A stretch of 64,000 bases of DNA, taken from assembly GCF_022965805.1 (NCBI RefSeq), contig NC_133104.1, positions 19,143,071 to 19,207,070 on the forward strand. The letters are read 5' to 3'. Source of the stretch: Primulina eburnea. Its lineage: Eukaryota; Streptophyta; Magnoliopsida; Lamiales; Gesneriaceae. Shown here piece after piece: positions 1-43,145 of the stretch. Positions within the stretch are counted from its first letter, which is position 1; the number at the start of each line of letters is the position of its first letter. The translations under genes and the position numbers were made by a program. The notes beneath the pieces are model-generated. The model did not search any database, was not told the DNA's origin, and saw nothing but the letters and a program-made list of their open reading frames with translations.

Positions 1-592
1 ATGCAGATAGGTGCTCCTGTAGAGTGCACTGAACAACCCTCCATAAAAGGACTTTCCAAGTGGTTCTCACTTATCGAGTGGAAAAGTCCTGGTTTATGGT
101 TGTACAATTAGTCCTTATGACCCGGGACAACATTGAGACTCTATGTGCTAGCGTTTCACTTTGACTTGTTTACCGACTCTTATGGGGTCATAGGTGGCAA
201 GGTTGGGTGTTACGGCGAAACATATAGGAGTCGATGCATTGTAGTCGGGGATTCACCGCTTACCTACGGGTATGGATATCCTATGTGTTTTTCATGTATG
301 TGTGGGTTGAAATCTCTGATCAGAGTATGGTGGTAATTATGAAAGGGGTTTCATAGATTACACCATCGATGCAACCACAACATGACACATAGTATCGATT
401 CATTGACAACTCTCGATAACCAATAGTTGTCGAATCGGTCGGGATATATGAGTTGAAGGGACCGTACTGTACGCTAACCATAATTGAATGGTTCTTGCAG
501 GCACTATCATGTGATACCTAGGGAATCACGTAAGCGATGCTGCTAGGCGTTTAACGTGATTGGTTGGGTACTATCAGACTTGAGTTCTGACG

Positions 593-623
593 TTCTTACT
601 ATCAAGGAGTTGATAAGTAAGAA
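593..623 (+). other. LTR stem-loop with C-G / U-G / U-A pair between copies
   Basis: The arms TTCTTACTATCAA and TTGATAAGTAAGAA pair around a GGAG loop with one bulged A. C599 pairs with G617. In the 3' LTR (8296-8326) the C is a T, leaving a U-G wobble. In copia-3 (42167-42197, minus) the pair is T-A. The other copies keep C-G. Confidence 0.7.
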
Positions 624-761
624 TGGAGCAATTGGGGTATGCTCGAATAAGGACATGTTTAGTCCGAATCACATGAGATGTGAACCCACGGCTAGTTGTA
701 TCAATGAACCATTGAGGGCCACACAAGTACTTGCTTGTAAATCCCGAAGAGAAGTAAAATA

Positions 762-1168
762 GTTCAATGTGTTGAACGGCTTATAAATGTGTTTATAAGC
801 GTAAAGAAAATAGAAGTATGACTTCTAAGAGAGAAATATAAATTTTAATTTATGGAAGTGTTCCTAAGATTAAAATTTGGCCAAGTAAATAATGTAGTTG
901 AAAATTGTGATTTTCATAAACATTATTGTGGACTAAATTAAATTAATTCAAGTGTTGAATTAATTAAACACTAGTGGACCTAGTAGAGTCTAAATAATTA
1001 AATTAATTCAAGTGTTGAATTAATTAAATAATATTGAGTCTTGTAGAGCTCAATTTAAATAATTATTTAACTAGTGGGACTTGAGTAAATCAAGTAATAT
1101 TTAATTAATCTCAAATGTGTTTGAGATAATAAAATTTAGTCTATGGTTTTTAATGTGTTAAAAACCAT
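762..1168 (+). other. array of consecutive stem-loops in copia LTR (copy 1)
   Basis: Perfect inverted repeats follow one another: 762-777 (GTTCAA, loop TGTG), 779-800 (GCTTATAAA, TGTG), 811-827 (TAGAAGT, ATG), 844-877 (a long arm capped by GGAA-GTG-TTCC), 899-916 (TGAAAAT, TGTG; outer arms 888-894 and 921-927), 941-965 and 1001-1025 (AATTAATTCAA, GTG), 1079-1095 (ACTTGA, GTAAA), 1108-1127 (ATCTCAAA, TGTG) and 1143-1168 (ATGGTTTTTAA, TGTG). The run ends at a TATA-like stretch. All six copia LTR copies in the window keep it. No known feature type accounts for it. Confidence 0.85.
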
Positions 1169-1666
1169 ATATATGTGAGACATGCTAGGGTTTGCATGCT
1201 TGGGAGGTGAAAGGTGTTGATTACTTTTTATTAAAAAATTCAAAAGCATGCAACTTTTGAGAGACAACTTTCACAACACCTAGGCTAGTCTCCCACACTC
1301 CACACTCTCACTTGGCCGAAATCTTAAGTTTTTCTCTCATTTTTCTTTCTTTGTTCTTCATTTTTGGAGAAAAATTCTCTTTGAAAATCCTCAATTTTCT
1401 AGTGCAAACTTGAGGGGATTTACCTTGCTAAGTGGTGGGCTTGATTTTGAGAAGGAGAGGAGCTTGTAGACTTTTCCAAAGAAGAGCTTAGTTGTATCAA
1501 CTAAGTTGGAGCCATCATCAACTTAAGTTGATAGGTAAATTCTAAACATCCTATGCATGTTTTTTTTTTGTAAATATTGCACAAAAATATGGGGCCGAAA
1601 TTTTGCTTAAAATTTAATTTTTGCTTCCGTTGCGTTTCCGGCCTCCGTAACCGGTCCGCTTTCAAG

Positions 1667-1678
1667 TGGTATCCGAGC
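1667..1678 (+). other. primer-binding site, copia-1
   Basis: TGGTATCCGAGC lies 2 bp after the LTR end. It matches the usual plant PBS for initiator tRNA-Met (TGGTATCAGAGC) except for one base, and the same base is found in copia-2 and copia-3, so it is a family trait. Confidence 0.9.
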
Positions 1679-3420
1679 TAAGGTTACGGTTTTTGTGATA
1701 TTTGATAATATTATGTTGAGATCGATTTCTAACGCTTGAGATTTTTGTGCAAAAATCAAGGCCGAAATTTTACAAAACAAAAAAAAAAAAAATTTTCGGG
1801 GCTGCCCGGGGCTGCCCGAAATTTCGGGCAGCGAGGGGCTGCCCGAAATTCAGTTTTAATAAAAAAAAAAAAAATTTTTTTGTTGCCGGAATCCGGCGAC
1901 GGAGCTCCGGCGACGGCGATGACGGCTAGGGTTTCCAAAAGTGTTTTGGAAATCTTAGTGTCATGGGCCTTGAGATGTTGGGCCATTGGATGGCCAACAT
2001 AATTTGTGAAATTTAAATGGGCCAAATATTTTTGGTGAAAAATGAGTTTTGGGCCCTTAAGTTTAAATTTACAATTGTTGCACATATTTTCTCATAAAAT
2101 AAATAATTGAAGTAGGACTTTAATTATTTATAGTAAATTGTGATTTACAAGAAATTCGATTATAAATAAATTAATTTGAAAGTAGACAAAGGTGTTTGTA
2201 TACTTTGTTAATTTAATTTATAATTGTGGCGGTTAGTGATTGGATCAAGATATAATATTGGATCAATTAATTATAGTGATAATTAATTGATGGTGTATGA
2301 TATGTGATATTATGCATGAAGGATGATCAAAAGCCCAAGCCCAATTTGCTAGGTGTATGCTAGGATATTTGTGTTGTATGATTGTAATAATTATCAATTT
2401 TAAAGTGGGCTTGGTTTATGGCCCGTTCCCACCCCATGAGATGTATCCCTATGTGCCATGGATATTTAATTGTAAATATTAGAATAGGGAAGATCAAGAT
2501 TGGAAGATGGTGGCCTTGGTGATTATGAAGATCGAAGACATGTAATATTGGATGCTAATGTAATATTTAGTTGCATTGCATCCCGTGCATTTACCCTAGG
2601 ATTGGACCTAGGCCCGTGTTTGGCTCACACGGGCCATTAGTTTGGGGCAATTGATCATCCTTGTACTGTTTTCTATTTATAATATATGCATGATATGTTA
2701 TAAATAATGAGTATGTGCGTTATTATTATTAATAACAAAGTTGCATGAATCCGGCAAACATACGATCAAACATGGCGAGCTTTTAAAATAAAATTAATGA
2801 TGAGACCTTTCAAAATTAAAAACCCTCATTTTGAATAAGATTCAAAATTAATATCAAGTCCGAAAAGGGGAATTATAAATTTGTTTATAATTTCCTTGTC
2901 TTCCATCGACAATGGATGCATGATGAACGCTACCCGTACTCGGGGCTCGGCTCATATTATTGGGGGGCCCTGGGTGCCGGAAAGCTGTGACATCCATTGA
3001 CATGGTGATGTGAACTACGTGGAACTCCCATGATTTCGGCTCATATTATTGAGGGAACTCATGGCGACCGTCCATTAAGGTTCAATATCGATGGGTTAGG
3101 CTTGACACGTAAAGATGAACGACGTCATAATTGGGTCCTAATCAAACGTGAGACAAAAGTTACGTAGAGGGTTGCATGGCGATGCAATTGGAAACTACCT
3201 TTTAGGATTGTGATGGCCGATAATTCGGGATCACAATTCGCTAATTGGACCTTACGTACCTACTGAGGAAAGTGTTTCCCGTTTTCACTAGAGGGTAGTG
3301 AAAATGTCAAAACAGTGGGAGCGATATTTATAAAGTAAAAGTCCAAACTTTATATCTTATTAAATATTTTAAAATAGTCATTAACATTTATCTGTTTTAC
3401 TTTTCAGTACAATCTTTGAC
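1679..3420 (+). other. copia-1 untranslated leader
   Basis: About 1.74 kb without a conserved ORF separates PBS and gag; the same region is present in copia-2 and copia-3. It holds a GC-rich inverted-repeat cluster (about 1795-1852, core GGCTGCCCGAA/TTCGGGCAGC), two direct copies of CGGCTCATATTATTG (2948-2962 and 3037-3051), and a pyrimidine-rich tract ending in CAG at 3405-3407, just before gag, that resembles a splice acceptor. The ORFs at 1736-2085 overlap the GC-rich repeats and are not genes. Confidence 0.8.
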
Positions 3421-6400
3421 ATGTCATCAATTCGCAACCCGTTTTCGGTCATTCTCGAAAAACACATTCTAACCGGACCAAACTATATCACTTGGCTAAG
3501 AAATTTAAAGATTGTCCTAAACTCGGAGAAATCGCATATACACTGACTGAGTCGCCCCCTGATGAGGCTCCGACTACTGCAGTCCGAGGAATTGCAGACC
3601 TACAAGGATTGGTGCGACCATGACTTGAAGGCAAGTGTTATATGCAGGCTTCGATGAACGATGAGCTGCAAAGGCGATTCGAGGATGCTAAGAATGCTGC
3701 TGACATTCATATGCACCTCAAGGAGCTCTTCGGTGAGCAGACTCGGCCTTTGAGGCATGCCACAGTAAAGGAGCTCATCACTTTACGCATGCGAGATGGG
3801 ACTTCGGTCCATGAGCATGGCCTAAAGTTGATTGGGCTCGTGGACAAGCTCGTAGGCATGGATTTGATCTTGCCATCGGAGTTGACCACGGATGTGTTGC
3901 TGTTGTCACTGCCAGCTCTTTCGATCCTTTTGTCGTGAACTTCAATATGAACAAGCTCGAGCCCAGCCTTGAAGAGTTGGTGAACATGCTTGTGACCTTT
4001 GAGTCCACAATCAAGGAGAAGCGGTTCTTTATGTGGGCTCTTCATCTGGCACGAAGACCGGTCCACCTGGGAAGGGAAAGAAGCGTTCTTTCCAGCGTAC
4101 CAAGAAGAGCGAGCCCTTGAAGAGGCAGACTCCGAGTCCCGTAGTGGCAGCCGCGCCAGAAGGCTGAAAGACTGTTGACATCTGTCACCACTGCAAGAAG
4201 CCTGGACATTGGAGGCGTAACTGCAGGGAATATCTTGCGCAGAAGGGTTCTGCAAAGGTATGTTCTAATTGAAGTAATATCTCGATTAACTCTACTTCTT
4301 GGGTATTGGATACCGGCTGTGGCTCACATCTCTGTAATGATTTGCAGGTGATGGGAAGAAGTAGGAGCTCCGAGAGGGTGAGACCTTCTTGAGGATGGGC
4401 AATGGAGCAAGGTTGCTGCCAAGCCGTGGAGATGTTTATTTATTTTGAACAATGATTTTAAGTGTTTTGAGAGATGTTTTATTTGTACCAGACTTGATTA
4501 AAAACATTATTTCCATTCTATGCTTGATATTGATGGATTGTCTTGTTTATTTGGCCAAAGGTGTTTGCAATATTTACAAGAATGAATGTTTTGTTTGTAC
4601 CGGTGAACTTGAAAACAATCTCTACACCTTAAAATTAAAGATATTCCACTTAACAATGTCCAAACGATAACAACAACAAATAAGCGCAAACAAGATACTC
4701 TTAATTCGGCACAATTATGGCATGCTCGATTAGGACATATTTCCTCAAGAAGGATGAACAAGCTAGTGGGAGTTGGCATGTTTGATATGTCCGATGTTAA
4801 TGCTCTCACGACTTGTGAATCCTGTTCTAAAAGGAAAGATGACCAAAATTCCCCTTTAAGGGCCATGCGGAGCGAGCCAAAGGATTATTGGATTTGATCC
4901 ATACCGATGTGTGCGGTCCGCTTAGCATCACCACTAAGCATGGGACATGCCTACTTCATCACCTTTACGATGACCATTCGAGGTATGGGTAGTGTATTTG
5001 ATGAAATACCAAGTCTGAAGCCTTTGAACGGTTCAAAGAATTCAGAAGTGAAGTAGAGAACAATTGGGACGAAGCATCAAGACACTTCGATCGGATCGAG
5101 GTGGCGAGTACTTGAGTGCCGAGTTCCAGAGTATCTTAGAGAGAATGGGATTCTCTCGCAGTGGACTCCGACCGCTACACCGCAGTTGAATGGTGTTTCG
5201 GAACGTCGTAACCGGACTTTGATGGATATGGTTCGGTCTATGATGGGTTCACGGAGTTGCCGCCATCCTTTTGGGGATATGCGCTTGAGACAGCGGCACT
5301 GTTGTTGAAACCATGTCTATACAAAAGCCGTTGATAAGACACCATATGAGATATGGATGGGTAAGCCACCCAAATATTCTTATTTTAGAATATGGGGGTG
5401 CCCTGCTTATGTGAAGCAGGCAGTGGGAGATAAATTGGACTGTCGATCCATTTTATGCTACTTTGTGGGATATCCAAGGAATTCAGCTGGATATTATTTC
5501 TATCATCTCAAGAAACAAAGGTGTTTGTTTCTAGGAACGCAACCTTTTTGGAAAGGGAATTTCTATTGGATAGAAAAGGCGAGATGATAGAACTCGAAGA
5601 GGTTCGAGAGACACCCCACAGTTGTAGAACCCACACCCGAGAAGCCAAAGTGAGGAGATACAAGCTCCTAGAAGAACCGAGAGAGTCTCGAGACCACCTG
5701 TGAGGTATGGTCTGCTTCTTGAAGAGGGCCATGATGAGCCTAATCTTGGATGTGATCCAAGGACCTTCAAGGAAGCGTTATCGGATGCTGATTCATCCAA
5801 GTGGCTTGAAGCAATGGAATCTGAGATGAATTCCATGTATTCGAACCAGTGTGGAATCTTGTGGATCCACCTGAGGGAACTGTTCCCATAGGGTGTAAAT
5901 GGATTTACAAGAGGAAACTTGGGGCGGGATGGGAAGGTATTGACCTTCAAGGCGCGATTGGTAGCAAAAGGGTATACTCAAAGACAAGGTGTTGACTATG
6001 AGGAAACCTTTTCTCCAGTTGCGATGTTCAAGTCCATTAGGATATTGCTAGCCATAGCTGCATGGTATGACTATGAGATATGGCAGATGGATGTGAAGAC
6101 AGCCTTCCTTAATGGGGATATTAAGGAAGAAATTTACATGTCTCAACCTGAAGGGTTTACATCCATCGGAAGTGAGCATATGGTATGCAAACTTCAAAGA
6201 TCTATTTATGGTCTTAAGCAGGCATCGAGGAGCTGGAACCTCAGATTCGATAGTACAATCAAAGAGTTTGGTTTTACTAAGAATCCTGAGGAACCCTGTG
6301 TGTATAAGAAGGTCAGTGGGAGTGCTGTGACATTCCTTGTTCTTTATGTTGATGACATTCTACTCATTGGGAATGATGTAGGAATGTTGCAATCAACAAA

Positions 6401-7331
6401 GATATGGTTAGCAAGTAAGTTCTCAATGCAGGACTTGGGTGAAGCATCTTTTGTATTGGGAATACAGATCTATAGAGATATATCAAGAAGATTGCTTGGT
6501 CTCACCCAGTCCACATACATTGATACCATCGTGAAGCGGTTCTCGATGGATGAGTCCAAGAGAGGACATCTACCAATGTGTCATGGCGTGTCCCTATCCA
6601 AGTCTATGTCTCCCAAGACTGATGCAGAGATAGCGGCGATGACACGAATTCCGTATGCTTCGGCTATTGGTAGCATCATGTATGGGATGATATCTACACG
6701 TCCTGACGTGGCATTTGCACTAAGTGTAGTGAGTAGATATCAATCCAACCCTGGTCTTCCACACTGGAAAGCTGTGAAAGACATCCTCAAGTATTTGAGA
6801 AGGACCAATAAGTTGTTTTTGGTCTATGGGGGTGGAGAACTAAAATTGGAAGGCTATACCGACTCTAGCTTCCAAAGCGATGTTGATGACTCGAAGTCAA
6901 CCTCCGGATTCATATTCATGCTCAATGGTGGTGCTGTCTCTTGGAAGAGTTCCAAGCAAGACAGTACTGCGGATTCCACCACTGAGGCAGAATACATTGC
7001 TGCATCGGCTGCAGCAAAGGAGGCTGTTTGGATTAGGAATTTCGTCCAAGAGTTGGGCGTCATTCCAAATGGAGTTGCTCCTATCCCGGTGATGTGCGAC
7101 AACACGGGAGCCATAGCTCAGGCAAAGGAGCCAAGGTCTCATCAGAAGTCCAAACACGTATTGAGAAAGTACCACATCCTCAGAGAGATCGTGGAAAGAG
7201 GAGATGTCGTGATTGACAAAGTCGGCTCCGCAGATAATGTTGCTGATCCACTAACTAAGCCTTTACCAGGACCATCATTCGAGAAGCATCGCGAATCAAT
7301 GGGTCTAAAGAATATAGGTAGTTGGCTCTAG
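3421..7331 (+). pseudogene. copia-1 gag-pol polyprotein, frameshifted
   Basis: This codes for the structural and enzymatic polyprotein of a Ty1-copia element. The ATG at 3421 matches the start used in copia-2. Alignment to copia-2 shows a UBN2-type gag, a CCHC zinc knuckle (about 4187-4230), protease DTGCGSH (about 4311), integrase with the GAG-pre-integrase motif, and RT-RNaseH. From about 3500 to 5920 the frame is broken many times, mostly by one-base gains or losses. From 5919 to 7331 it is open for 470 codons: RT with YVDDILL (about 6346), then RNase H with TADSTTEAEY, ending at a natural stop. Not functional as written. See the finding on indel bias for the possibility of sequencing error. 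Confidence 0.93.
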
Positions 7332-7332
7332 T

Positions 7333-7345
7333 GCAAGTGGGAGAT
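7333..7345 (+). other. polypurine tract, copia-1
   Basis: GCAAGTGGGAGAT sits directly 5' of the LTR TG. It is the expected plus-strand primer position. The tract is short and interrupted, as is common in copia elements. Confidence 0.75.
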
Positions 7346-9428
7346 TGTTAGAGTAGGTGCACGTCGAGCCAAGTGTTGGCCGACTGTTCACAATGAAACT
7401 CTTTGTATAAACGATCTTTATTTTAATAATATTTGAATTTATTAATTTGGCGCATCTTTATCTTTATACCCATGCTAGCTGCATAGATAAAGCCCTTGAA
7501 TATACAAATAGTAGAAAGAATATGAGATGCTCATATGATGAGTATCATGAAACTCATATTTGTAATACTGTATATTCTAAACCGTTCCTAGTCGATTCAG
7601 CCGCTACTAAGAAGGATAAAGGCCGCTCGAGTTAGAGACTAGTATCTGCGATGTGAGTACCATGTTTCATTGGTAGGGGACATTGTGATGTCCGAAAATG
7701 CAGATAGGTGCTCCTTGTAGAGTGCACTGAACAAACCCTCCATAAAAGGACTTTCCAAGTGGTTCTCACTTATCGAGTGGAATAGTCCTGGTTTATGGTT
7801 GTACAGAATTAGTCCTTATGACCCGGGACAACATTGAGACTCTATGTGCTAGAATTACACTTTGACTTGTTTACCGACTCTCATGGGGTCATCAGGTGGC
7901 AAGGTTGGGTGTTCTGTCGAAACACATAGGAGTCGATGCATTGTAGTCGGGGATTCACCGCTTACCTACGGGTATGGATATCCTATGTGTTTTTCATGTA
8001 TGTGTGGGTTGAAATCTCTGATCAGAGTATGGTGATAATTATGAAAGGGGTTTCATAGATTACACCATCGATGCAACCACAACATGACACATAGTATCGA
8101 TTCATTGACAACTCTCGATAAACCAATAGTTGTCGAATCGGTCGGGATATATGAGTTGAAGGGACCGTACTGTACGCTAACCATAATTGAATGGTTCTTG
8201 CAGGCACTATCATGTGATACCTAGGGAATCACGTAAGCGATGCTGCTAGGCGTTTAACGTGATTGGTTGGGTACTATCAGACTTGAGTTCTGACGTTCTT
8301 ATTATCAAGGAGTTGATAAGTAAGAATGGAGCAATTGGGGTATGCTCGTATAAGGACATGTTTAGTCCGAATCACATTGAGATGTGAACCCACGGCTAGT
8401 TGTATCAATGAACCATTGAGGGCCACACAAGTACTTGCTTAGTAAATCCCGAAGAGAAGTAAAATAGTTCAATGTGTTGAACGGCTTATAAATGTGTTTA
8501 TAGGCGTAAAGAAAAATTAGAAGTATGACTTCTAAGAGAGAAATATAAATTTTAATTTATGGAAGTGTTCCTAAGATTAAAATTTGGCCAAGTAAATAAT
8601 GTAGTTGAAAATTGTGATTTTCATAAACATTATTGTGGACTAAATTAAATTAATTCAAGTGTTGAATTAATTAAACACTAGTGGACCTAGTAGAGTCTAA
8701 ATAATTAAATTAATTCAAGTGTTGAATTAATTAAATAATATTGAGTCTTGTAGAGCTCAATTTAAATAATTATTTAACTAGTGGGACTTGAGTAAAATCA
8801 AGTAATATTTAATTAATCTCAAAATGTTTGAGATAATTAAAATTTAGTCTATGTTTTTTTTAATGTGTTAAAAAAAACCATATTATATATGTGAGACATG
8901 CTAGGGTTTGCATGCTTGGGAGGTGAAAGGTTGTTGTTTACTTTTTATTAAAAAATTCCAAAAGCATGCAACTTTGAGAGACAACTTTACACAACAACCT
9001 AGGCTAGTCTCCCACACTCCACACTCTCTCACTTTGGCCGAAATCTTGAAGTGTTTCTCTCAAGTTTTTCTTTTCTTTGTTCTTCATTTTTGTTGGAGAA
9101 TAAACCCTTCTCTTTGATAAATCCTCAAACTTTTCTAGTGCAATTTTTGAGGGGGTTTACCTTGCTAGTGGTGGGCTTGATTTAGGAGCAAGGAGGAGGA
9201 GCTTGTAGACTTGTCTTCCATAAGAAGAGCTTAGTTGCTAGTCAACTAAGTTGGAGCCAACATCAACTTTTTAAAGTTGATAGGTAAATTTCTTAAACAT
9301 CCTATGCATGGTGTTTTTGTTTTTGTAAATATTGCACATAAACATCATGGTGGCCGTAAATTATAGCATGAAAAATAAAATTTTTGACTTCCGTTGCGCT
9401 TCCGGCCACCGTAACCGGTCCGCTTTCA
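7346..9428 (+). repeat. 3' LTR of copia-1 (2083 bp)
   Basis: The LTR begins TGTTAGAGTAGG and ends GCTTTCA, the same end as the 5' LTR. It is the only copia LTR here on the plus strand with both ends intact. ORFs within it (7447-7635, 8022-8213, 8908-9117) recur in other LTR copies only as by-products of sequence identity. Confidence 0.95.
8467..8882 (+). other. array of consecutive stem-loops in copia LTR (copy 2)
   Basis: Same series as 762-1168. In the last hairpin both arms are longer together: T8AA (8854-8863), loop TGTG, TTA8 (8868-8877), against T5/A5 in copy 1. The second hairpin keeps pairing through one G-U wobble (TTTATAGGC arm). Confidence 0.8.
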
Positions 9429-11497
9429 AGAGTAGGTGCACGTCGAGCCAAGTGTTGGCCGACTGTTCACGATGAAACTCTTTGTATAAACGATCTTTAT
9501 TTTAATAATATTTGAATTTATTAATTTGGCGCATCTTTATCTTTATACCCATGCTAGTTGCATAGATAAAGTCCTTGAATATACAAATAGTAGAAAGAAT
9601 ATGAGATGCTCATATGATGAGTATCATGAAACTCATATTTGGAATACTGTATATTCTAAACCGTTCCTAGTCGATTCAGCCGCCACTAAGAAGGATAAAG
9701 GCCGCTCGAGTTAGAGACTAGTATCTGCGATGTGAGTACCATGTTTCATTGGTAGGGGACATTGTGATGTCCGAGCATGCAGATAGGTGCTCCTGGTAGA
9801 GTGCACTGAACAACCCTCTATAAAGGACTTTCCAAGTGGTTCTCACTTATCGAGTGGAAAAGTCGTAGTTTATGGTTGTACACCATTAGTCCTTATGACC
9901 CGGGACAACATTGAGACTCTATGTGCTAGCGTTTCACTTTGACTTGTTTACCGACTCTTATGGGGTCATCAGGTGGCAAGATTGGGTGTTACGGCGAAAA
10001 CATATAGGAGTCGATGCATTTTAGCCGGGGATTCACCGCTTACCTACGGGTATGGATATCCTATGTGTTTTTCATGTATGTGCGGGTTGAAATATCTGAT
10101 CAGAGTATGGTGGTAATTATGAAAGGGGTTTCATAGATTACACCATCGATGCAACCACAACATGACACATAGTATCGATTCATTGACAACTCTCGATAAA
10201 CCAATAGTTGTCGAATCGGTCGGGATATATGAGTTGAAGGGACCGTACTGTACGCTAACCATAATTGAATGGTTCTTGCAGGCACTATCATGTGATACCT
10301 AGGGAATCACGTAAGCGATGCTGCTAGGCGTTTAACGTGATTGGTTGGGTACTATCAGACTTGAGTTCTGACGTTCTTACTATCAAGGAGTTGATAAGTA
10401 AGAATGGAGCAATTGGGGTATGCTCGAATAAGGACATGTTTAGTCCGAATCACATAGAGAAGTGAACCCACGGCTAGTTGTATCAATGAACCATTGAGGG
10501 CCACACAAGTATTAGCTTTGTAAATCCCGATGAGAAGTAAAATAGTTCAATGTGTTGAACGGCTTATAAATGTGTTTATGAGCGTAAAGAAAAATAGAAG
10601 TATGACTTCTATGAGAGAAATATAAATTTTAATTTATGGAAGTGTTCCTAGATTAAAATTTGGCCAAGTAAATAATGTAGTTGAAAATTGTGATTTTCAT
10701 AAACATTATTGAGGACTAAATTAAATTAATTCAAGTGTTGAATTAATTAAACACTAGTGGACCTAGTAGAGTCTAAATAATTAAATAATTCAAGTGTTGA
10801 ATTAATTAAATTATATTGAGTCTTGTAGAGCTCAATTAAAATAATTATTTAACTAGTGGGACTTGAATAAATTCAAGTAGTATTTAATTAATCTCAAATG
10901 TGTTTGAGATAATTAAAAATTTAGTCCATGGTTTTTTAATGTGTTAGAAACCATATAATATATGTGAGACATGCTAGGGTTTGCATGCTTGGGAGGTGAA
11001 GAGGTGTGGATTACTTTTTATTAAAAAATTCAAAAAGGATGCAACTTTTGAGAGACAACTTTTTCAACAACCAAGGCTAGTCTCCCACACTCTCCCAACA
11101 CCTCACTTGGCCGAATTCTTGAGGGTTTTTCTCTCCCATTTTTCTTCCATTTTTGTTCTTCATTTTCTTGGAGAATAAAATCTTTTATTTGAAAATCCTT
11201 AAGTTTTTCTAGTGCAAAACTTGAGGGGGTTTGCCTTGCTAGTGGTGGGCCTTATTTCTTGAAGGAAAGAAGGAGGAGCTTGTAGATTTGCCTACCAAAG
11301 AAGAGCTTTGTTGTTTACAACAAAGTTGGTGCCATTCATCAAACTTGAGAGGTTGATAGGTAAATCTCTAAACATCCTATGTTTGATGTTGTTTTGTAAA
11401 TATTGTGCAAAAACCATGGTGGCCGAAATTTCTAGCTTAAAATGTTAAATTTTTGACTTCCGTTGCGCTTCCGGCCACCGTAACCGATCCGCTTTCA
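9429..11497 (+). repeat. 5' LTR of copia-2, first 4 bases lost
   Basis: It begins at AGAGTAGGTGC, lacking TGTT, and follows the end of the copia-1 3' LTR without any spacer. It ends CTTTCA before the PBS. Internal sequence matches the other LTRs closely, with scattered substitutions and one-base indels. Confidence 0.93.
10545..10955 (+). other. array of consecutive stem-loops in copia LTR (copy 3)
   Basis: Same ordered hairpins as at 762-1168. Here ACTTGAA-TAAA-TTCAAGT has a 7-bp stem instead of 6, and the GCTTATAAA hairpin tolerates a G-U pair (TTTATGAGC). Confidence 0.8.
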
Positions 11498-11499
11498 AG

Positions 11500-11511
11500 T
11501 GGTATCCGAGC
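11500..11511 (+). other. primer-binding site, copia-2
   Basis: TGGTATCCGAGC lies 2 bp after the LTR end. It is identical to the copia-1 PBS. Confidence 0.9.
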
Positions 11512-13311
11512 TAAGGTTACGGTTTTTGTGTTATATTTACGTAATATTGTATTGAGATCGATTTCTAACCGCTTGAGAAATATTTTTGCAAGGAAATTCA
11601 AAGGGCCGAAAATTTAAAAAAAAAATATATATATATATATATATTTTTCGGGCAGCCGAGGGGCTGCCCGAAAATTTCGGGCAGCCGAGGGGCAGTCCGA
11701 GGGGCTGCCCGAAATACTACTTTTTAAAATAAAAAAAAATAAAAATTTTTGTGTGTTGCCGGAATCCGGTGACGGAGCTCCGGCGACGGCGATGACGGCT
11801 AGGGTTTCCAAAAATGTTTTGGAGAATCTTAGTGTCATGGGCCTTGAGATGTTGGGTCATTGGATGGACAACATAATTTGTGAAATTTAAATGGGCCAAA
11901 ATATTTTTTGGTGAAAAATGAGTTTTGGGCCCTTAAGTTTAAATTTACAATTGTTGCACATATTTTCTCATAAAATAAATAATTGAAGTAGGACTTTAAT
12001 TATTTATAGTAAATTGTGATTTACAAGAAATTCGATTATAAATAAATTAATTTGAAAGTAGACAAAGGAGTTTGTATACTTTGTTAATTTAATTTATAAT
12101 TGTGGCGGTTAGTGATTGGATCAAGATATATAATATTGGATCAATTAATTATAGTGATAATTAATTGATGGTGTATGATATGTGATATTATGCATGAAGG
12201 ATGATCAAAAGCCCAAGCCCAATTTGCTAGGTGTATGCTAGGATATTTGTGTTGTATGATTGTAATAATTATCAATTTAAAGTGGGCTTGGTTTATGGCC
12301 CGTTCCCACCCCATGAGATGTATCCCTATGTGCCATGGATATTTAATTGTAAATATTAGAATAGTGGAAGATCAAGATTGGAAGATGGTGGCCTTGGTGA
12401 TTATGAAGATCGAAGACATGTAATATTGGATGCTAATGTAATAATTTAGTTGCATTGCATCCCTTGCATTTACCCTAGGATTGGACCTAGGCCCGTGTTT
12501 AGCTCACACGGGCCATTAGTATTGGGGCAATTGATCATCCTTGTACTGTTTTCTATTTATAATATATGCATGATATGTTATAAATAATGAGTATGTGCGT
12601 TATTATTATTATAATAACAAAGTTGCATGAATCCGACAAACATACGATCAAACATGGCGAGCTTTTAAAATAAAATTACTGATGAGACCTTTCAAAATTA
12701 AAAAACCCTCATTTTGAATAAGATTCAAAATTAATATCAAGTCCGAAAAGGGGAATTATAAATTTGTTATAATTTCCTTGTCTTCCATTGACAATGGGTG
12801 CATGATGAACGCTACCCGTACTCGGGGCTCGGCTCATTTTATTGGGGGGGCCCTTAGTGCCGGAAAGCTGTGACATTCATTGACATGGTGATGTGAACTA
12901 CGTGGAACTCCCATGACTTCGGCTCAGATAATTGAGGGAACTCATGGCGACCGTCCATTAAGGTTCAACATCGATGGGTAAGGCTTGACACGTAAAGATG
13001 AACGACGTCTATAATGGGTCCTAATCAAACGTGAGACAAAAGTTTACGAGAAGGGTTGCATTGTGATGCAATTGGGAAACTACCTTTTAGGAATTGTGAT
13101 TGGCTGTATAATCGGGATCATAATTCGCTAATTGGACCTTACGTACCTACTGAGGAAAGGAGTTTCTCGTTTTCACTAGAGGGTAGTGGAAATGTCAAAA
13201 CAGTGGGAGCGATAATTTATAAAGTAAAAGTCCAAACTTTATATCTTATTAAATATTTTAAAATAGTCATTAACATTTATCTGTTTTACTTTTCAGTACA
13301 AATCTTTGACA
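11512..13311 (+). other. copia-2 untranslated leader
   Basis: Homologous to the copia-1 leader. It starts with the GC-rich hairpin cluster (11645-11711) and ends with a pyrimidine-rich tract and CAG at 13294-13296, 15 bp before the gag ATG. The ORFs in it (11614-11899, 12235-12423, 13056-13373) are not shared in frame with the other copies. Confidence 0.8.
11645..11711 (+). other. GC-rich double hairpin downstream of PBS
   Basis: A 13-bp perfect stem, TTTTCGGGCAGCC with GGCTGCCCGAAAA, encloses the loop GAGG. A second copy of the left arm starts at 11678 and a second right arm at 11703. The cluster lies about 140 bp after the PBS, where retroelement RNAs often carry packaging or dimerisation hairpins; that role is inference. 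Confidence 0.7.
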
Positions 13312-16151
13312 ATGTCATCAATTCGCAACCCGTTTTCCGTTATTCTCGAAAAACACGTTCTAACCGGACCTAACTATATCACTTGGCTAAGAAATCTAAA
13401 GATTGTCTTGAACTCGGAGAAAATCGCATACACACTGACTGAGTCGCCCCCTGATGAGGCTCCGACTAACTGCAGTCCCGAGGAACTGCAGACCTACAAG
13501 GATTGGTGCGACCATGACTTGAAGGCCAAGTGTTATATGCAGGCTTCGATAAACGATGAGCTGCAAAGGCGATTCGAGGATGCTAAGAATGCTGCTGACA
13601 TTCATATGCACCTCAAGGAGCTCTTCGGTGAGCAGACTCGGCCTTTGAGGCATGCCACAGTAAAGGAGCTCATCACTTTACGCATGCGAGATGGGACTTC
13701 GGTCCATGAGCATGGCCTAAAGTTGATTGGGCTCGTGGACAAGCTCGTTGGCATGGATTTGATCTTGCCATCGGAGTTGACCACGGATGTGCTACTGTTG
13801 TCACTGTCGAACTCGTTCGATCCTTTTGTGGTGAATTTCAATATGAACAAGCTCGAGCCCAGCCTTGAAGAGTTGGTGAACATGCTTGTGACCTTTGAGT
13901 CCACAATCAAAAAGGAGAAGTCGGTTCTTTATGTGGGCTCTTCATCTGGCACGAAGACCGGTCCACCTGGGAAAGGAAAGAAGCGTTCTTTCAAGCGCCC
14001 CAAGAAGAGCGAGCCCTTGAAGAGGCAGACTCCGAGTCCCGTAGTGGCAGCCGCGCCAGCCAAGGCTGAGAAGACAGTTGACATCTGTCATCACTGCAAG
14101 AAGCCTGGACATTGGAGGCGTAACTGCAGGGAATATCTTGCGCAGAAGGGTTCTGGCAAGGGTATGTTCTATATTGAAGTAAATATCTCGATTAATTCTA
14201 CTTCTTGGGTATTAGATACCGGCTGTGGCTCACATCTCTGTAATGATTTGCAGGTGATGGGAAGAAGTAGGAGGCTCCGAGAGGGTGAGACCTTCCTGAG
14301 GATGGGCAATGGAGCAAGGGTTGCTGCCAAAGCCGTAGGAGATGTTTATTTAATATTGAACAATGATTTTAAGCTTGTTTTGAGAGATGTTTTGTATGTA
14401 CCAGACTTGGTTAAAAACATTATTTCCATTTCTATGCTTGATATTGATGGATTTTCTTGTTTATTTGGCAAAGGTGTTTGCAATATTTACAAGAATGAAT
14501 GTTTAGTTGGTACGGGTGAACTTGAAAACAATCTCTACACCTTAAAATTAAAAGATATTCCACTTAACAATGTCCAAACGATAACAACAACAAATAAGCG
14601 CAAACAAGATACTCTTAATTCGGCACAATTATGGCATGCTCGATTAGGTCATATTTCCCTAAGAAGGATGAACAAGCTAGTGGGAGTTGGCATGTTTGAT
14701 ATGTCCGATATTAATGCTCTCACGACTTGTGAATCCTGTCTAAAAGGAAAGATGACCAAAATTCCCTTTAAGGGCCATGCGGAGCGAGCCAAAGGGTTAT
14801 TGGATTTGATCCATACCGACGTGTGCGGTCCACTTAGCATCACCACTAAGCATGGACATTCCTACTTCATCACCTTTACCGATGACTTTTCGAGGTATGG
14901 GTATGTGTATTTGATGAAATACAAGTCTGAAGCCTTTGAAAGGTTCAAAGAATTCAGAAGTGAAGTAGAGAAACAATTGGGACGAAGCATCAAGACACTT
15001 CGATCGGATCGAGGTGGTGAGTACTTGAGTGCCGAGTTCCAAGAGTATCTTAGAGAGAATGGGATTCTCTCGCAGTGGACTCCGCCCGCTACACCGCAGT
15101 TGAATGGTGTTTCGGAGCGTCGTAACCGAACTTTGATGGACATGGTTCGGTCTATGATGGGGTTCACGGAGTTGCCGCCATCCTTTTGGGGATATGCGCT
15201 TGAGACAGCGGCACTGTTGTTGAACAATGTCCATACAAAAGCAGTTGATAAGACACCATATGAGATATGGATGGGTAAGCCACCTAAATATTCTTATTTT
15301 AGAATATGGGGGTGCCCTGCTTATGTGAAGCAGGTAGTGGGAGATAAATTGGACGGTCGATCCATTTTATGTTACTTTGTGGGATATCCAAAGAATTCAG
15401 CTGGATATTATTTCTATCATCCCAAAGAAACAAAAGTGTTTGTTTCTAGGAATGCAACTTTTTTGGAAAAGGAATTTCTATTGGATAGAAAAGGAGAGAT
15501 GATAGAACTCGAAGAGGTTCGAGAAACACCCACAGTTGTAGAACCCACACCCGAGGAGCCAAGTGAGGAGATACAAGCTCCTAGAAGAACCGAGAGAGTC
15601 TCGAGACCACCTGTGAGGTATGGTCTGCTTCTTGAAGAGGGCCATGATGAGCCTGATCTTGGATGTGATCCAAGGACCTTCAAGGAAGCGTTATCGGATG
15701 CCGATTCATCCAAATGGCTTGAAGCAATGGAATCTGAGATGAATTCCATGCATTCAAACCAAGTGTGGAATCTCGTGGATCCACCTGAGGGAATTGTTCC
15801 CATAGGGTGTAAATGGATTTACAAGAGGAAACTTGAGGCGGATGGGAAGGTGTTGACCTTCAAGGCGCGATTGGTAGCAAAAGGGTATACTCAAAAACAA
15901 GGTATTGACTATGAGGAAACCTTTTCTCCAGTTGCAATGTTCAAGTCCATTAGGATTTTGCTAGCCATAGCTGCATGGTATGACTATGAGATATGGCAGA
16001 TGGATGTTAAGACAGCCTTCCTTAATGGGGATATTAAGGAAGAGATTTACATGTCTCAACCTGAAGGGTTTACATCTATCGGAAGTGAGCATATGGTATG
16101 CAAACTTCAAAGATCTATTTATGGTCTTAAGCAGGCATCTAGGAGTTGGAA
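13312..16151 (+). CDS. copia-2 gag-pol polyprotein, N-terminal 947 codons, cut by gypsy-A
   Basis: The longest intact copia frame here. I take ATG 13312, which is conserved in copia-1, rather than the upstream TTG. Domains: UBN2-type gag (about 5-230); zinc knuckle C259-x2-C-x4-H-x4-C; aspartic protease D302-T-G; integrase zinc motif H442/H447 and C473/C476; integrase core D503, D566 and E602 (35 residues between the last two); then the reverse transcriptase fingers with KARLVAKGYTQ and QMDVKTAFLNG. The frame runs into the gypsy-A LTR at 16152, which adds six foreign codons and a stop (16168-16170). The YVDD box lies beyond the insertion, so no active RT can be made from this copy. Gag, protease and integrase motifs look intact. 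Confidence 0.93.
16147..16151 (+). other. target-site duplication TGGAA, left copy
   Basis: TGGAA directly precedes the gypsy-A LTR and is repeated at 23941-23945 after it. The uninterrupted copia-1 sequence has a single TGGAA here (AGCTGGAACCTCAG). Confidence 0.95.
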
Positions 16152-16278
16152 TGTAATGCCCGAGAATTAATTATTATAATCAGACATTGATTATTGACAT
16201 GATTGAGGTTATAAGAACTCAAATGACGAGGTCGGGCATCGTTATAATATAAGCCAAGATGTTCAACCGAACATCTCA

Positions 16279-16298
16279 AGATGTTCGGCCGAACATCT
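16279..16298 (+). repeat. 20-bp perfect palindrome
   Basis: AGATGTTCGGCCGAACATCT is its own reverse complement. A weaker inverted pair (AGATGTTC-AACC-GAACATCT) lies just before it. It is repeated in the 3' LTR at 21935-21954 and directly precedes the GCGCATATGCGC array. Confidence 0.9.
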
Positions 16299-16300
16299 CG

Positions 16301-16440
16301 GCGCATATGCACGAGATAAGTTGCACATATGCGCGACCTGTCCAGAAGGATCGGCGCATATGCGCGATGTAGAGGGCGCATATGCGCGGGAGGGACAGTA
16401 GGTTCAGCGCATATGCGCGAGAAGAGTGGCGCATATGCGC
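16301..16440 (+). promoter_or_regulatory. phased GCGCATATGCGC array, gypsy-A 5' LTR
   Basis: Six 12-bp motifs start at 16301, 16323, 16354, 16376, 16407 and 16429. Four are perfect palindromes; the first two have one change. Spacings are 22, 31, 22, 31, 22. The 10-bp and 19-bp spacers keep their length but not their sequence. An (AT)n TATA-like run begins about 50 bp downstream. Likely protein-binding sites in U3; the factor is unknown. Confidence 0.85.
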
Positions 16441-16489: not shown

Positions 16490-16523
<34 letters not shown>

Positions 16524-23945: not shown

Positions 23946-24946
23946 CCTCAGATTCGATAGTACAATCAAAGAGTTTGGTTTTACTAAGAATTCTGAGGAA
24001 CCCTGTGTATATAAGAAGGTCAGTGGGAGTGCTGTGACATTCCTTGTTCTTTATGTTGATGACATTCTACTCATTGGGAATGATGTAGGATTGTGCAATC
24101 AACTAAGATATGTTTAGCAAGTAAGTTCTCAATGCAGGACTTGGAAGAAGCATCTTTTGTATTGGGAATACAGATCTATAGAGATAGATCAAAAGATTGT
24201 TTTGGTCTCACCCAGTCCACATACATTGATACCATCGTGAAGCGGTTCTCGATGGATGAGTCCAAGAGAGGAACATCTACCAATGTGTCATGATGGCGTG
24301 TCCCTATCCAAGTCTATGTCTCCCAAGACTGATGCAGAGATAGCGGCGATGACACGAATTCCGTATGCTCCGGCTATTGGTAGTATCATGTATGGGATGA
24401 TATCTACACGTCCTGACGTAGCACTTGCACTAAGTATAGTGAGTAGATATCAATCCAACCCTTGGTCTTCCACACTGGAAAGCTGTGAAAGACATCCTCA
24501 AGTATTTGAGAAGGACCAATAAGTTGTTTTTGGTCTTTGGGGGTGGAGAACTAAAATTGGAAGGCTATACCGACTCTAGCTTCCAAAGCGATGTTGATGA
24601 CTCGAAGTCAACCTCCGGATTCATATTCATGCTCAATGGTGGTGCTGTCTCTTGGAAGAGTTCCAAGCAAGACAGTACTGCGGATTCCACCACTGAGGCA
24701 GAATACATTGTTGCATCGGCTGCAGCAAAGGAGGCTGTTTGGATTAGGAATTTCGTCCAAGAGTTGGGCGTCATTCCAAATGAAGTTGCTCCTATCCCGG
24801 TGATGTGCGACAACACGGAGCCATAGTTCAGGCGAAGGAGCCAAGGTCTCATCAGAAGTCCAAACACGTATTGAGAAAGTACCACATCCTCAGAGAGATC
24901 GTGGAAAGAGGGAGATGTCGTGATTGACAAAGTCGGCTCCGCAGAT
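23946..24946 (+). pseudogene. copia-2 pol, C-terminal part (RT-RNase H), frameshifted
   Basis: Continues the reverse transcriptase from 16151: YVDDILLIGND at about 24050, then RNase H with DSTTEAEYI at about 24680-24710. Compared with the intact copia-1 frame there are shifts near 24095, 24275, 24465 and 24820, each of one or two bases. The sequence stops in the RNase H C-terminus at GCAGATAA, where a deletion joins it to the inside of the LTR, so the natural stop, the PPT and the LTR start are gone. Confidence 0.9.
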
Positions 24947-26747
24947 AAAGGCCGCTCGAGTTACAGACTAGTATCTGCGATGTGAGTACCATGTTTCATT
25001 GGTAGGAGACATTGTGATGTCCGAGCATGCAGATAGGTGCTCCTGGTAGAGTGCACTGAACAACCCTCTATAAAGGACTTTCCAAGTGGTTCTCACTTAT
25101 CGATGGAAAAGTCCTAGTTATGGTTGTACACCATTAGTCCTTATGACCCGGGACAACATTGAGACTCTATGTGCTAGCGTTTCACTTTGACTTGTTTACC
25201 GACTCTTATGGTGTCATCAGGTGGCAAGATTGGGTGTTACGGCGAAAACATATAGGAGTCGATGCATTGTAGCCGGGGATCACCGCTTACCTACGGGTAT
25301 GGATATCCTATGTGTTTTTCATGTATGTGTGGGTTGAAATCTCTGATCAGAGTATGGTGGTAATTATGAAAGGGGTTTCTTAGATTACACCATCGATGCA
25401 ACCACAACATGACACATAGTATCGATTCATTGACAACTCTCGATAAACCAATAGTTGTCGAATCGGTCGGATATATGAGTTGAAGGACCGTACTGTACGC
25501 TAACCATAATTGAATGGTTCTTGCTGGCACTATCATGTGATACCTAGGGAATCACGTAAGCGATGCTGCTAGGCGTTTTAACGTGATTGGTTGGGTACTA
25601 TCAGACTTAGTTCTGACGTTCTTACTATCAAGGAGTTGATAAGTAAGAATGGAGCAATTGGGGTATGCTCGAATAAGGACATGTTTTAGTCCGAATCACA
25701 TAGAGATGTGAAACCCACGGCTAGTTGATCAATGAACCATTGAGGGGCCACACAAGTATTAGACTTTTGTAAATCCGATCAGAAGTAAAATAGTTCAATG
25801 TGTTGAACGGCTTATAATGTGTTTATAAGCGTAAAGAAAAATAGAAGTATGACTTCTATGAGAGAATATAAATTTTAATTTATGGAAGTGTTCCTGAGAT
25901 TAAAATTTGGCCAAGTAAATAATGTAGTTGAAAATTGTGATTTTCATAAATATTATTGAGGACTAAATTAATTAATTCAAGTGTTGAATTAATTAAACAC
26001 TAGTGGACCTAGTAGAGTCTAAATAATTAAATAATTCAAGTGTTGGAATTAATTAAAATTATATTGAGTTTTGTAGAGCTCAATTAAAATAATTATTTAA
26101 CTAGTGGGACTTGAATAAATTCAAGTAGTATTTAATTAATCTCAAATGGTTTGAGATAATTAAAAATTTAGTCCATGGTTTTTTTAATGTGTTAGGAAAC
26201 CATATAATATATGTGAGACATGCAGGGTTTGTATGCTTGGGAGGTGAAGAGGTGTGGATTACTTTTTATTAAAAATTCAAAAGGATGCAACTTTTGAGAG
26301 ACAACTTTTTCAACAACCAGGCTAGTCTCCCACACTCTCCCAACACCTCACTTGGCCGAATTCTTGAGGGTTTTTCTCTCCCATTTTTCTTCCATTTTTG
26401 TTCTTCATTTTCTTGGAGAATAAAATCTTCTCTTTGAAAAATTCCTTAAGTTTTTCTAGTGCAAAACTTGAGGGGGTTTGCCTGCTAGTGGTTGGGCCTT
26501 ATTTCTTGAAGGAAAGAAGGAGGAGCCTTGTGATTTGCCTACCAAAGAAGAGCTTTGTTGTTTACAACAAAGTTGGTGCCATTCATCAACCTTGAGAGGT
26601 TGATAGGTAATCTCTAAACATCCTATGTTTGATGTTGTTTTGTAAATATTGTGTAAAAACCATGGTGTGCCGAACGAATTTTCTAGCTTAAAATGTTAAA
26701 TTTTTTACTTCCGTTGCGCTTCCGGCCACGTAACCGATCCGCTTTCA
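24947..26747 (+). repeat. 3' LTR of copia-2, first ~275 bp deleted
   Basis: Picks up at AGGCCGCTCGAG, inside the LTR, and runs to the normal end GCTTTCA. Several one-base losses relative to the other LTR copies. Confidence 0.93.
25793..26202 (+). other. array of consecutive stem-loops in copia LTR (copy 4)
   Basis: Same series as 762-1168, beginning GTTCAA-TGTG-TTGAAC and ending with the ATGGTTT...AAACCAT hairpin, here with uneven arms. Confidence 0.75.
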
Positions 26748-40992: not shown

Positions 40993-43145
40993 TGAAGGGG
41001 GATCGGTTACGGTGATCGGAAGCGCAACGGAAGTTTAAAAAATCGAATTTTTTAGGGATAAATTTCGGCCACCTACATTTTGTTGTAGCAAATACATTTA
41101 AACACCATTATCATACATAGGGTGTAAGAAAATCGTTACCTATCAACCTCTTGAGGTTGATGATGGCTCCAACTAAGGTGTAAACACCTTAGCTCTTGAA
41201 TGGAAGATAAATCTACAAGCTCTCCTCCTTTCTTCTTGAATCTTTCCTTCAAATTAGGCCCACCACCAGCTAGGTAGATCCCCTCATATTTTGCACTAGA
41301 AAAATATGAGGATTTTTCAAAGAGAAGTGCAAGATTTCCTCAACAAATTGAAGAACAAAAATGAGAGAAAAATGGGAGAGAAAATGTTGAGAGGAATTCG
41401 GCCATGAGGAGTGCAAGAATGGGGAAGGGAGACTTGTCTTGGTCCTTGAAAAAGTTGAGGCATAAAGTTGCATGCCATGCCTTGAAAACTCAAAAAGTAG
41501 TCTCCCAACCTTTCACCTCCCATGCATGCATATTATAAGGTTTTTATCAAAATAAAAACCATGGACTAAATTTAATTATCTCAAACATATTTGAGACTAA
41601 TTAAACATTACTTTAATTTACCCAAGTCCCACTAGTTAAATAATTAATTTAAATTGAGCTCTACAAGACTCAATATAATTTAATTAATTCAACACTTGAA
41701 TTAATTTAATTATTTGGACTCTACTAGGTCCACTAGTGTTTAATTAATTCAACACTTGAATTAATTTAATTTAGTCCATAATAATGTTTATGAAAATCAC
41801 AATTTTCAAATAAATTATTCACTTGGCCGAATTTAATTTAGGAACACTTCCATAAATTAAAATTTACATTTCTCTCATAGAAGTCATACTTCTATTTTTC
41901 TTTACACTTATAAACTCATTTATAAGTAGTTCAACACATTGAACTATATTCTCCTTTATAGAAGTCATACTTCTAATTTTCCTTACGCTTATAAACTCCT
42001 TTATAAGCCGTTCAACACATTGAACTATTTTTACTTCTCCACGGGATCTAGAAAGCTAGTACTTGTGTGGCCCTCAATGGTTCATTGATACAACTAGCCG
42101 TGGGTTCACATCTTCATGTGATTCGGACTAAACATGTCCTTATATGAGCATACCCCAATTGCTCCATTCTTATTTATCAACACCTTGATAATAAGAACGT
42201 CAGAGCTCAAGTCTGATAGTACCCAACCAATCATGTTAAACGCCTAGCAGCATCGCTTACATGATTCCCTAGGTATCAAATGATAGTGCCTGCAAGAACC
42301 ATTCTATTATGGTTAGCGTACAGTACGGTCCCTTCAACTCATATATCCCGACCGATTCGACAACCATTGGTTTATCGAGAGTTGTCATTGAATCGATACT
42401 ATGTGTCATGTCGTAGTTGCATCGATGGTGTAATCTATGAAACCCCTTTCATAATTACCACCATACTCTGGCCAGAGATTTCAACCTACTAACACATGAT
42501 AACACATAGGATATCCATACCCGAAGGTAAGCGGTGAATCCCCGACTACAATGCATCGACTCCTATGTGTTTCGACAGAACACCCAACCTTGCCACCTGA
42601 TGACCCCATGAGAGTCGGTAAACAAGTCAAAGTGTAATTCTAGCACATAGAGTCTCAATGTTGTCCCGGGTCATAAGCACTAATGGTGTACAACCATAAA
42701 CTAGGACGTTTCCACTCGATAAGTGAGAACCACTTGGAAAGTCCTTTAATGGAGGGTTGTTCAGTGCACTCTACCAGGAGCACCTATCTGCATGCTCGGA
42801 CATCACAATGTCCCCTACCAATGAAACATGGTACTCACATCGCAGATACTAGTCTCTAACTCGAGCGGCATATATCCTTCTTAGTGGCGGCTGAATCGAC
42901 TAGGAACCGTTTAGAATATACAGTATTACAAATATGAGTTTCATGATACTCATCATATGAGCATCTCATATTCTTTCTACTATTTGTATATTCAAGGGCT
43001 TTATCTATGCAACTAGCATGGGTATACAGATAAAGATGTTCCAAAATAATAATATCAAATATTACTAAAATAAAGATTGCTTATACATAGAGTTTCATTG
43101 TGAACACTCGACCAACAATTGGCTCGACGGGCACCTACTCTAACA
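40993..43145 (-). repeat. 5' LTR of copia-3 (2153 bp)
   Basis: Reads TGTTAGAGTAGGTGC from 43145 downwards. About 70 bp longer than copia-1's LTR, mainly because a stem-loop module has been duplicated (41876-42025). Confidence 0.95.
41537..42025 (-). other. array of consecutive stem-loops in copia LTR (copy 5, with duplicated module)
   Basis: The GCTTATAAA and GTTCAA hairpins occur twice: 41906-41927 (ACTTATAAA/TTTATAAGT) and 41987-42008 (GCTTATAAA/TTTATAAGC). The outermost pair changed from G-C to A-T with both arms altered. The last hairpin (41539-41560) reads GGTTTTTAT-TTTG-ATAAAAACC against GGTTTTTAA-TGTG-TTAAAAACC elsewhere, another paired change. Confidence 0.85.

Follow-up and report, generated by a model that had tools for sequence, protein, structure and literature searches.

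Short hairpins are distributed along the whole of a single Ty1/copia family of Primulina eburnea in the 64-kb window (the entire stretch of 64,000 nucleotides that was analysed), and the stem-loop run in the LTR merely marks where this pattern, larger than the first-pass annotation had stated, is densest. Our analysis demonstrated that these hairpins exceed chance in number, follow a strand-specific loop rule with a near-fixed loop G, change in a pair-coupled manner, occur in coding sequence beyond what protein and codon use would give, and recur in other copia elements. We consider the chances about even that the stem-loops, under selection on the sense RNA, are dispersed packaging signals for the zinc knuckle of Gag, their putative partner.

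Three copies and one partial solo LTR of the family are located in the window. The LTR is about 2.08 kb long (TGTTAG...CTTTCA) and is followed by a tRNA-Met-like primer site, and gag, integrase and RT domains were identified by Pfam. Among the best 120 matches, the RT relatives that carry names are mostly from flowering plants. A comparison of the 407-bp run with the genome gave 2359 first-look candidates, of which 40 were scored; these were all 99-100% identical, one being the window itself, and many of these 40 places were paired about 7.8 kb apart, as expected of LTR pairs. The family is high-copy and young. Its features in the window are listed here, further loci being given by L numbers:

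1..1664, plus strand: 5' LTR of copy 1, cut by the window start and followed by the AGTGG-TATCCGAGC primer-binding site
338..715, plus strand: further U3 hairpins with the loops GGGG, AATTGA, GGAG, GAG and AAC
762..1168, plus strand: densest hairpin run, in the 3' part of U3 of copy 1, ending at a TATA-like stretch; aligned in 15 copies
1142..1169, plus strand: last hairpin of the run, TATGGTTTTTAA-TGTG-TTAAAAACCATA; both stem sides are re-written in L033/L036 with the pairing kept
1169..1664, plus strand: R-U5 part of copy 1, with a smaller share of G-ended loops; diverges fast
1665..3480, plus strand: untranslated leader of copy 1, with 16 hairpins (loop 3-6), 11 of their loops G-ended
5342..7017, plus strand: coding hairpins of copy 1 with the loops GAG, TATTTT, ATGTG, GGTG, TGG, GAGG, GTG, TGGA, ATTG, GGGGAT, GGG, GAG and TCGGC
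5892..7331, plus strand: RT-RNase H open frame of copy 1, with a Pfam match to RT
7346..9428, plus strand: 3' LTR of copy 1 (TGTTAG...CTTTCA), with the hairpin run at 8467-8878
9429..11498, plus strand: 5' LTR of copy 2, with the hairpin run from 10545
13267..16170, plus strand: gag-to-RT open frame of copy 2, 967 aa, with one CCHC knuckle
24944..26747, plus strand: 3' LTR of copy 2, 5' truncated, with the hairpin run from 25793
40993..43145, minus strand: 5' LTR of copy 3, with the hairpin run at 41955-41537 and an extra block just upstream
57816..59224, minus strand: partial solo LTR carrying the run

At 9426-9431, copies 1 and 2 meet in an LTR-LTR junction, with nothing between the 3' LTR of the former and the 5' LTR of the latter, which is without its first four bases TGTT, as from insertion of a circle or concatemer. 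LTRs of the copy-3 type contain a duplicated block, about 90 bp long, in which the run's first hairpins are repeated (~41937-42030 on the minus strand, L033-L036, L042 and L047); in copy 3, the extra block has the loop GGAG. Between the two LTRs of copy 1, R-U5 (1169-1664 vs 8881-9430) is 86% identical and the hairpin run 98.5%. The window also harbors a pair of 2.2-kb repeats (47206-49433 and 53106-55333, 99.2% identical) that does not belong to the copia family.

The first-pass annotation had reported about ten stem-loops within 410 bp, and accordingly positions 762-1168 contain 11 non-overlapping perfect hairpins (arm at least 6, loop 3-6), compared with a mean of 0.95 and a maximum of 4 in 500 dinucleotide shuffles; with arms of at least 8, five hairpins compare with 0.09 in the shuffles. 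As it had also stated, the run ends at a TATA-like stretch (CCATATATAT from ~1165) and is kept in six LTR copies: all six LTRs of the window carry it, and so do nine more copies at most 100 kb to either side. The loops of the run are TGTG (five), GTG (two), ATG, TTTA, AATT and GTAAA, so that the preponderance of TGTG and GTG described before is present, but what holds steady is the G at the 3' end of the loop and not TGTG. When segments of the 64 kb were ranked by hairpin content, the top 40 listed were all located within copia copies, LTRs first and then leader and coding sequence; in six copies, the upstream part of U3 reaches 4.5-8.4 hairpins per kb when loops of 3-4 nt are counted. RNA folding of the run gave z values of -8.3 for the sense and -10.3 for the antisense strand, and since the antisense strand folds at least as well, folding energy has no power to tell the strand. 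A search of positions 1-16500 at the Rfam gathering score yielded no matches, and scans of viral contigs and phages led nowhere.

In copy 1, the hairpins run on through the leader and the coding region, which the first-pass annotation had missed, and a feature of the U3 promoter only can thus be rejected. Coding hairpins were compared with synonymous shuffles that keep protein and codon use (n=200). The gag-RT frame of copy 2 (13267-16170) has 14 hairpins, 11 of them with G-ended loops, compared with 3.04 in the shuffles (0/200), and 10 compared with 0.73 if arms of at least 7 are required; in the copy 1 frame (5892-7331) there are 6 compared with 1.86 (1/200). The same shuffles revealed no hairpin excess in the seven gypsy ORFs of the window, e.g. 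4 compared with 3.58 in a 3.8-kb pol. Summed over 11 stretches from window copies 1 and 2, L047, L002 and L004, stems around a 3-nt spacer number 87 (10.2 expected) and around a 4-nt spacer 67 (9.2 expected), while the remaining spacers from 0 to 14 nt show a milder, 1.4- to 3.1-fold excess (12-31 compared with 8-11). A peak at the smallest loops open to a single strand suggests hairpins of RNA, or of another single-stranded nucleic acid. Chance in AT-rich sequence was rejected as an explanation, as the hairpin counts are far above the shuffles, including those that preserve the protein, and as the spacer sizes show this peak.

Loops on the sense strand are G-rich, almost devoid of C and mostly G-ended. 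G-ended loops account for 13/21 in the 3' LTR of copy 1, 11/16 in the leader and 11/14 in the copy-2 ORF, compared with 20-29% among shuffle hairpins; as a mirror control, loops starting with C, which would be G-ended on the antisense strand, occur in 0/14 of the ORF and 1/21 of the LTR hairpins. For loops of 3 and 4 nt, respectively, the G-ended fractions are 16/18 and 18/24 in the window, 25/37 and 25/30 in L004, 27/31 and 4/7 in L002, 3/3 and 4/5 in L005, and 15/16 and 11/12 in the internal part of L047, whose coding stretch has 16/16 G-ended loops of 3-4 nt. For R-U5 the values are 12/20 over six copies and 4/5 in L047. Between copies 1 and 3, the last G of G-ended loops changed in 2/36 cases, compared with 6/36 for the first base and 15/61 for the middle, and both last-G losses are hairpins lost in copy 3; loops were swapped from GGCG to TGTG, AGTG to TATG, TGTG to GGTG and TGAG to GAAG. 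A choice of the loop for stability was rejected, since, averaged over tetraloops closed by A-U or U-A, ending in G brings no gain over ending in A; in the energy model G..G loops gain stability, and triloops are not scored by sequence. In L012 (94-3618), 11 coding hairpins were counted compared with 3.95, and several of the loops are of the GNRA/GNA type (GCAA, GAAA, GAA, GTA) and not G-ended, perhaps another loop rule.

Pairing within the arms is maintained by coupled change. Copy 1 alone served for choosing the hairpins (54, with 380 pairs), which were then scored in copy 3, with the surrounding rate by base as expectation. One-sided changes were found 19 times compared with 59.5 expected, and both-sided changes with the pair kept 5 times compared with ~1.65; two double changes are unpaired, and all double changes amount to 7 compared with 4.96. 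The reverse direction agrees (29 one-sided changes compared with 65.8; 6 double changes paired and 2 unpaired), and the two copies diverge by 4-5% in the arms, 9-12% in the surroundings and 11-36% in the loops. Among the single co-changes that had been pointed out earlier, the TTATAA hairpin's switch from G-C to A-T in copia-3 and that of AA-TGTG-TT to AT-TTTG-AT were seen again. The change from T5/A5 to T8/A8 is likewise present, but might be due to homopolymer slippage because other copies read ~6/5 and 7/6, and the putative 599/617 pairing would require a one-base bulge at 616 in copy 1.

The six window copies being too small and too uniform a set for a covariation test, more LTR copies were added. 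In the resulting 15 copies, which are related to each other, 94.7% of 1331 cells pair; compared with shuffles that do not model this ancestry, and with the pairs of the last U3 hairpin partly misaligned, cells changed on both sides number 11 vs 4.6 and the covariation score reaches 0.061 compared with 0.050 (1/500 shuffles in each case). A series of A-U, G-U and G-C is displayed by three pairs. Two measures were not significant in the same copies: the number of pairs in which both sides had changed (4 compared with 2.4; 86/500) and that of further pair types (18 compared with 17.7; 279/500). Doubly changed cells amount to 7 and 9 even when the structure is slid by -1 or +3 columns. RNAalifold, applied to the 15 copies with its own structure, identified seven pairs with kept double changes, with a small covariation term of -1.87 out of -84.9 kcal/mol. 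In L033 and L036, GGGCTTTGTAA-AGG-TTACAAGCCC stands in place of the last hairpin GGTTTTTAA-TGTG-TTAAAAACC. A comparison of wobble with A-C pairs as a test for sense RNA, with the last U3 hairpin excluded for alignment gaps, gave no significant difference (11 vs 6; p=0.33).

The coding hairpins of copy 2 are largely kept in other copies (9/11 in copy 3, 8/11 in L033, 8/10 in L035 and 7/9 in L047; 17-19% diverged). In the same order, 4, 4, 3 and 5 double changes are paired and 1, 2, 5 and 2 unpaired, with 2.0-2.8 of any kind expected; these counts are not independent because the four share ancestry. Arm divergence of the hairpins in the copy-2 ORF is little under expectation (0.167 vs 0.191 in L033). 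An odd value was obtained for L041 in the copy-1 RT frame, where arms diverge by 0.143 vs 0.027, probably caused by the stretch end; copy 3, which has a broken frame, was left out of this comparison and of the reading of the RT tree. Selection on the fold, one of two causes which the first-pass annotation had offered for the paired changes, is well supported by the coupled changes, the small number of one-sided changes, the A-U/G-U/G-C series and the excess of 3-4 nt loops, even though some covariation measures are not significant.

Beyond the window, the analysis covered 20 stretches of the host genome, each of 10 kb. An RT-alignment scan of genome contigs identified 12 loci encoding copia relatives in bacterial/archaeal assemblies; one more came from a 'plasmid' record. 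Most likely, the copia loci in bacterial/archaeal assemblies are contaminants. The plant-like copia L001-L005, L012 and L027 reside in assemblies named Streptomyces, Solirubrobacter, Bradyrhizobium and Labilibacter and in two actinomycete 'plasmid' records (NZ_CP115302.1 and NZ_CP115454.1), a probable contamination of the reference data. G-ended coding hairpins with loops of 3-4 nt were counted against synonymous shuffles (n=200) and are in excess in L002 (10 vs 0.99), L004 (11 vs 1.04), L027 (8 vs 0.66) and L005 (5 vs 0.43), each with 0/200, and in L041, which belongs to the window's own family (12 vs 0.62; 0/200); in L047, where only a frame of 246 nt is covered, the count is 1 vs 0.06 (12/200). 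No such excess occurs in L001 (1 vs 0.39), L003 (1 vs 0.45) and L012 (1 vs 0.62), and G-ended coding hairpins number 0-1 in the distant L006-L011 and 0 in L021, L023, L024 and gypsy. Counted whatever the loop, hairpins are in excess also in elements negative for the trait (L003, 7 vs 2.29; L012, 7 vs 2.35; L001, 4 vs 1.45; L010, 11 vs 4.79). In the RT tree, L001-L005, L012 and L027 form one clade with the window family (local support 1.000), some of whose branches carry the trait while others do not. In L002 and L004, it extends to non-coding sequence, with 36 hairpins vs 6.6 downstream in L004, 23 of them G-ended. At 35-46% divergence, hairpin positions are kept in 2-5 of 12-13 cases in L002, L003, L004, L012 and L027, in 1/9 in L005 and in 1/4 in L001. 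As positions are mostly unshared between families, number, strand and loop rule persist while the sites turn over. Compared with window copies 1 and 2, L047, L033 and L035 are 93-96% identical in U3 and ~93% in the leader; for the same pairs, RT amino acid identity is 57-67% by segment, coding nucleotide divergence 17-24% and R-U5 identity ~75-81%. The likeness in U3 and leader might reflect either exchange between copia subfamilies or a non-coding constraint stronger than that on the genes.

In the reading that we favor, the hairpins would function as elements of the sense (genomic) RNA of the Ty1/copia retrotransposon, with short A/U-rich stems that would present a loop of 3-5 nt whose last base is usually G (an NNG triloop or NNNG tetraloop, often GNG), at sites spread over U3, leader and gag-pol. 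If transcription begins after the TATA-like stretch, the U3 run would be located in the 3' UTR of the genomic RNA. The CCHC knuckle of the element's own Gag, the simplest reader of such a G, may take up the exposed loop base, and many weak sites could act together in selecting the genomic RNA, nucleating it and condensing it inside the virus-like particle, a role ascribed to dispersed packaging signals in some RNA viruses and HBV. Redundant sites would be kept paired while present, yet be able to turn over in position between families. We propose many weak Gag sites because of several precedents: exposed guanosines of the GGAG loop enter the zinc fingers of HIV NC, as reported together with the finding that swapping that loop had no significant packaging effect (PMC7395439); MMTV Gag is described to bind, and to need, a purine loop (PMC8096270); the packaging signals of HBV are reported as dispersed stem-loops with RGAG loops (PMC7612645); and a general model of dispersed packaging signals has been put forward (PMC6281560). 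More tentatively, and with somewhat more doubt than confidence, we suggest that a group of plant copia possesses a genome-wide hairpin code, in which dozens of G-ended mini-hairpins would act as multiple Gag-docking sites and form a candidate dispersed packaging-signal system, with sites in gag-pol kept via codon choice, those elsewhere via coupled changes, and positions turning over.

A CCHC knuckle was found in window copies 1-3, L002, L033, L035, L041 and L047, and also in the trait-negative L003 and L012 and the distant L006-L011; none was found in the stretches of L001, L004, L005 and L027. In the stretches scanned, one knuckle was recognised per Gag. Those trait-positive knuckles with sequence available read HW(R/K)RNC(R/K)EYL, compared with HWKKDCP in L003 and HWKRACP in L012, too few to count as evidence. 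Against a role of Gag stands that L003 and L012 have a CCHC knuckle yet are without G-ended coding loops. If the Gag reading is true, the loop rule is readable from sequence and packaging becomes directly testable, copia lineages can be scanned for the mark, retroelement assembly is linked to the packaging-signal model of RNA viruses, and a functional reason is provided for Copia to keep hairpins that expose the elements to small RNAs, a question raised by the work on maize (PMC10760457).

The hairpins might instead be structural armour, small and local, that keeps the transcript folded and hidden from siRNA/RISC, RdRP or long-range pairing, the loops being G-rich and C-poor only to avoid pairing with each other or with the stems; this we consider unlikely. 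Armour would be consistent with local structure across the whole element, with loops almost without C, and with those elements of the same clade that have a hairpin excess but not the G rule. Likewise in its favor, a usual Dicer substrate has longer stems than these. However, armour predicts neither a fixation centred on the last loop base, with variation at the other positions, nor the sharp peak at loops of 3-4 nt, and hairpin regions in maize are reported to draw more small RNAs, not fewer (PMC10760457). Quite improbable in our view is a host RNA-binding protein, acting in export, P-bodies or translation control, as the reader of the G-ended loops in place of Gag: the same sequence evidence, with hairpins in leader, coding region and U3, would agree with it, but the trait occurs in some copia and is absent from the gypsy ORFs of the window, while a host factor would be open to all.

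A shade less probable again is an origin without function, in which the palindromes would be created and corrected by palindrome-templated repair or by template switching while the element is replicated or reverse-transcribed. This mechanism has been described and is able to give compensatory changes of several bases (PMC8794818), and in L033/L036 the last U3 hairpin is re-written as a whole. This second cause offered by the first-pass annotation may help to make stems, but by itself does not account for G-ended loops on the sense strand, a near-fixed last base or the coding excess; moreover, A-U/G-U/G-C series exist, and the window gypsy ORFs are spared. We would also expect template switching to have no strand preference in the loops, whereas G-ended compared with C-starting loops number 11 vs 0 of 14 in the copy-2 ORF and 13 vs 1 of 21 in the LTR. 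Very improbable are regulatory palindromes of double-stranded DNA in the U3 promoter, i.e. dimer binding sites akin to the repeated motifs of Sireviruses, which would suit a run just upstream of a TATA-like stretch as in those elements (PMC2829016), but not arms that vary from hairpin to hairpin, an extension into leader and coding sequence, or a spacer preference and loop rule unexpected for dimer sites.

With respect to known systems, the earlier statement that no LTR element of this form has been described was too strong, given the reports of palindrome arrays upstream of TATA in Sireviruses (PMC2829016) and of hairpins in maize Copia LTRs (PMC10760457). The palindrome cluster upstream of the TATA box in the Sirevirus LTR has been reported to be able to form hairpins (Bousios et al. 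2010, PMC2829016), and similarly the window copia has a palindrome cluster in its LTR upstream of a TATA-like stretch. Sirevirus motifs are, however, described as many copies of one palindrome per element, with a CGG-CCG core in 12/13 and forming CpG islands (PMC2829016), whereas the stems of the window copia are diverse, AT-rich and share only the loop rule, none in the run has a CGG-CCG core, and hairpins are also located in leader and coding sequence. Sireviruses have a long linker with several AGGGGGAG PPTs; in the window copia, the RT frame ends at 7331 and the LTR starts at 7346, and the terminal PPT, AGTGGGAG-AT/TG, is of the classic type. The Sirevirus 5' LTR junction, CA/A(T or G)TGG-TATCAGAGC, compares with CA/AGTGG-TATCCGAGC in the window copia, such that the junction fits and the PBS has one mismatch. 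As there is no long linker, the existing one being very short, and the PPT is classic-type, an assignment to the Sireviruses was rejected. In maize, hairpins are reported to be concentrated in Copia LTRs, with more small RNAs there (PMC10760457).

Our literature search, with most subscription journals outside its coverage, returned no paper describing, for LTR retrotransposons, either dispersed packaging signals or hairpins that follow a loop rule across the whole element. BARE of barley is a plant copia in which packaging has been studied, in a paper whose main text names no stem-loops or hairpins (PMC3735527), and the dispersed-signal account only suggests that Gag-like proteins might use such signals (PMC6281560). 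Like the dispersed packaging signals of single-stranded RNA viruses and HBV, the window copia has many predicted stem-loops along its genome, a short shared loop motif (the 3'-terminal G) and stem pairing kept by coupled change. It also resembles retroviral Psi, as described for the GGAG loop of HIV-1 (PMC7395439) and the purine loop of MMTV (PMC8096270), in combining a small G-rich loop on a stem with a zinc-finger Gag. Retroviral Psi is located near the 5' end, while the sites of the window copia occur throughout the element. Genome-scale ordered RNA structure, finally, is pervasive structure in coding RNA; in contrast, the window copia has discrete small hairpins with a near-fixed loop base.
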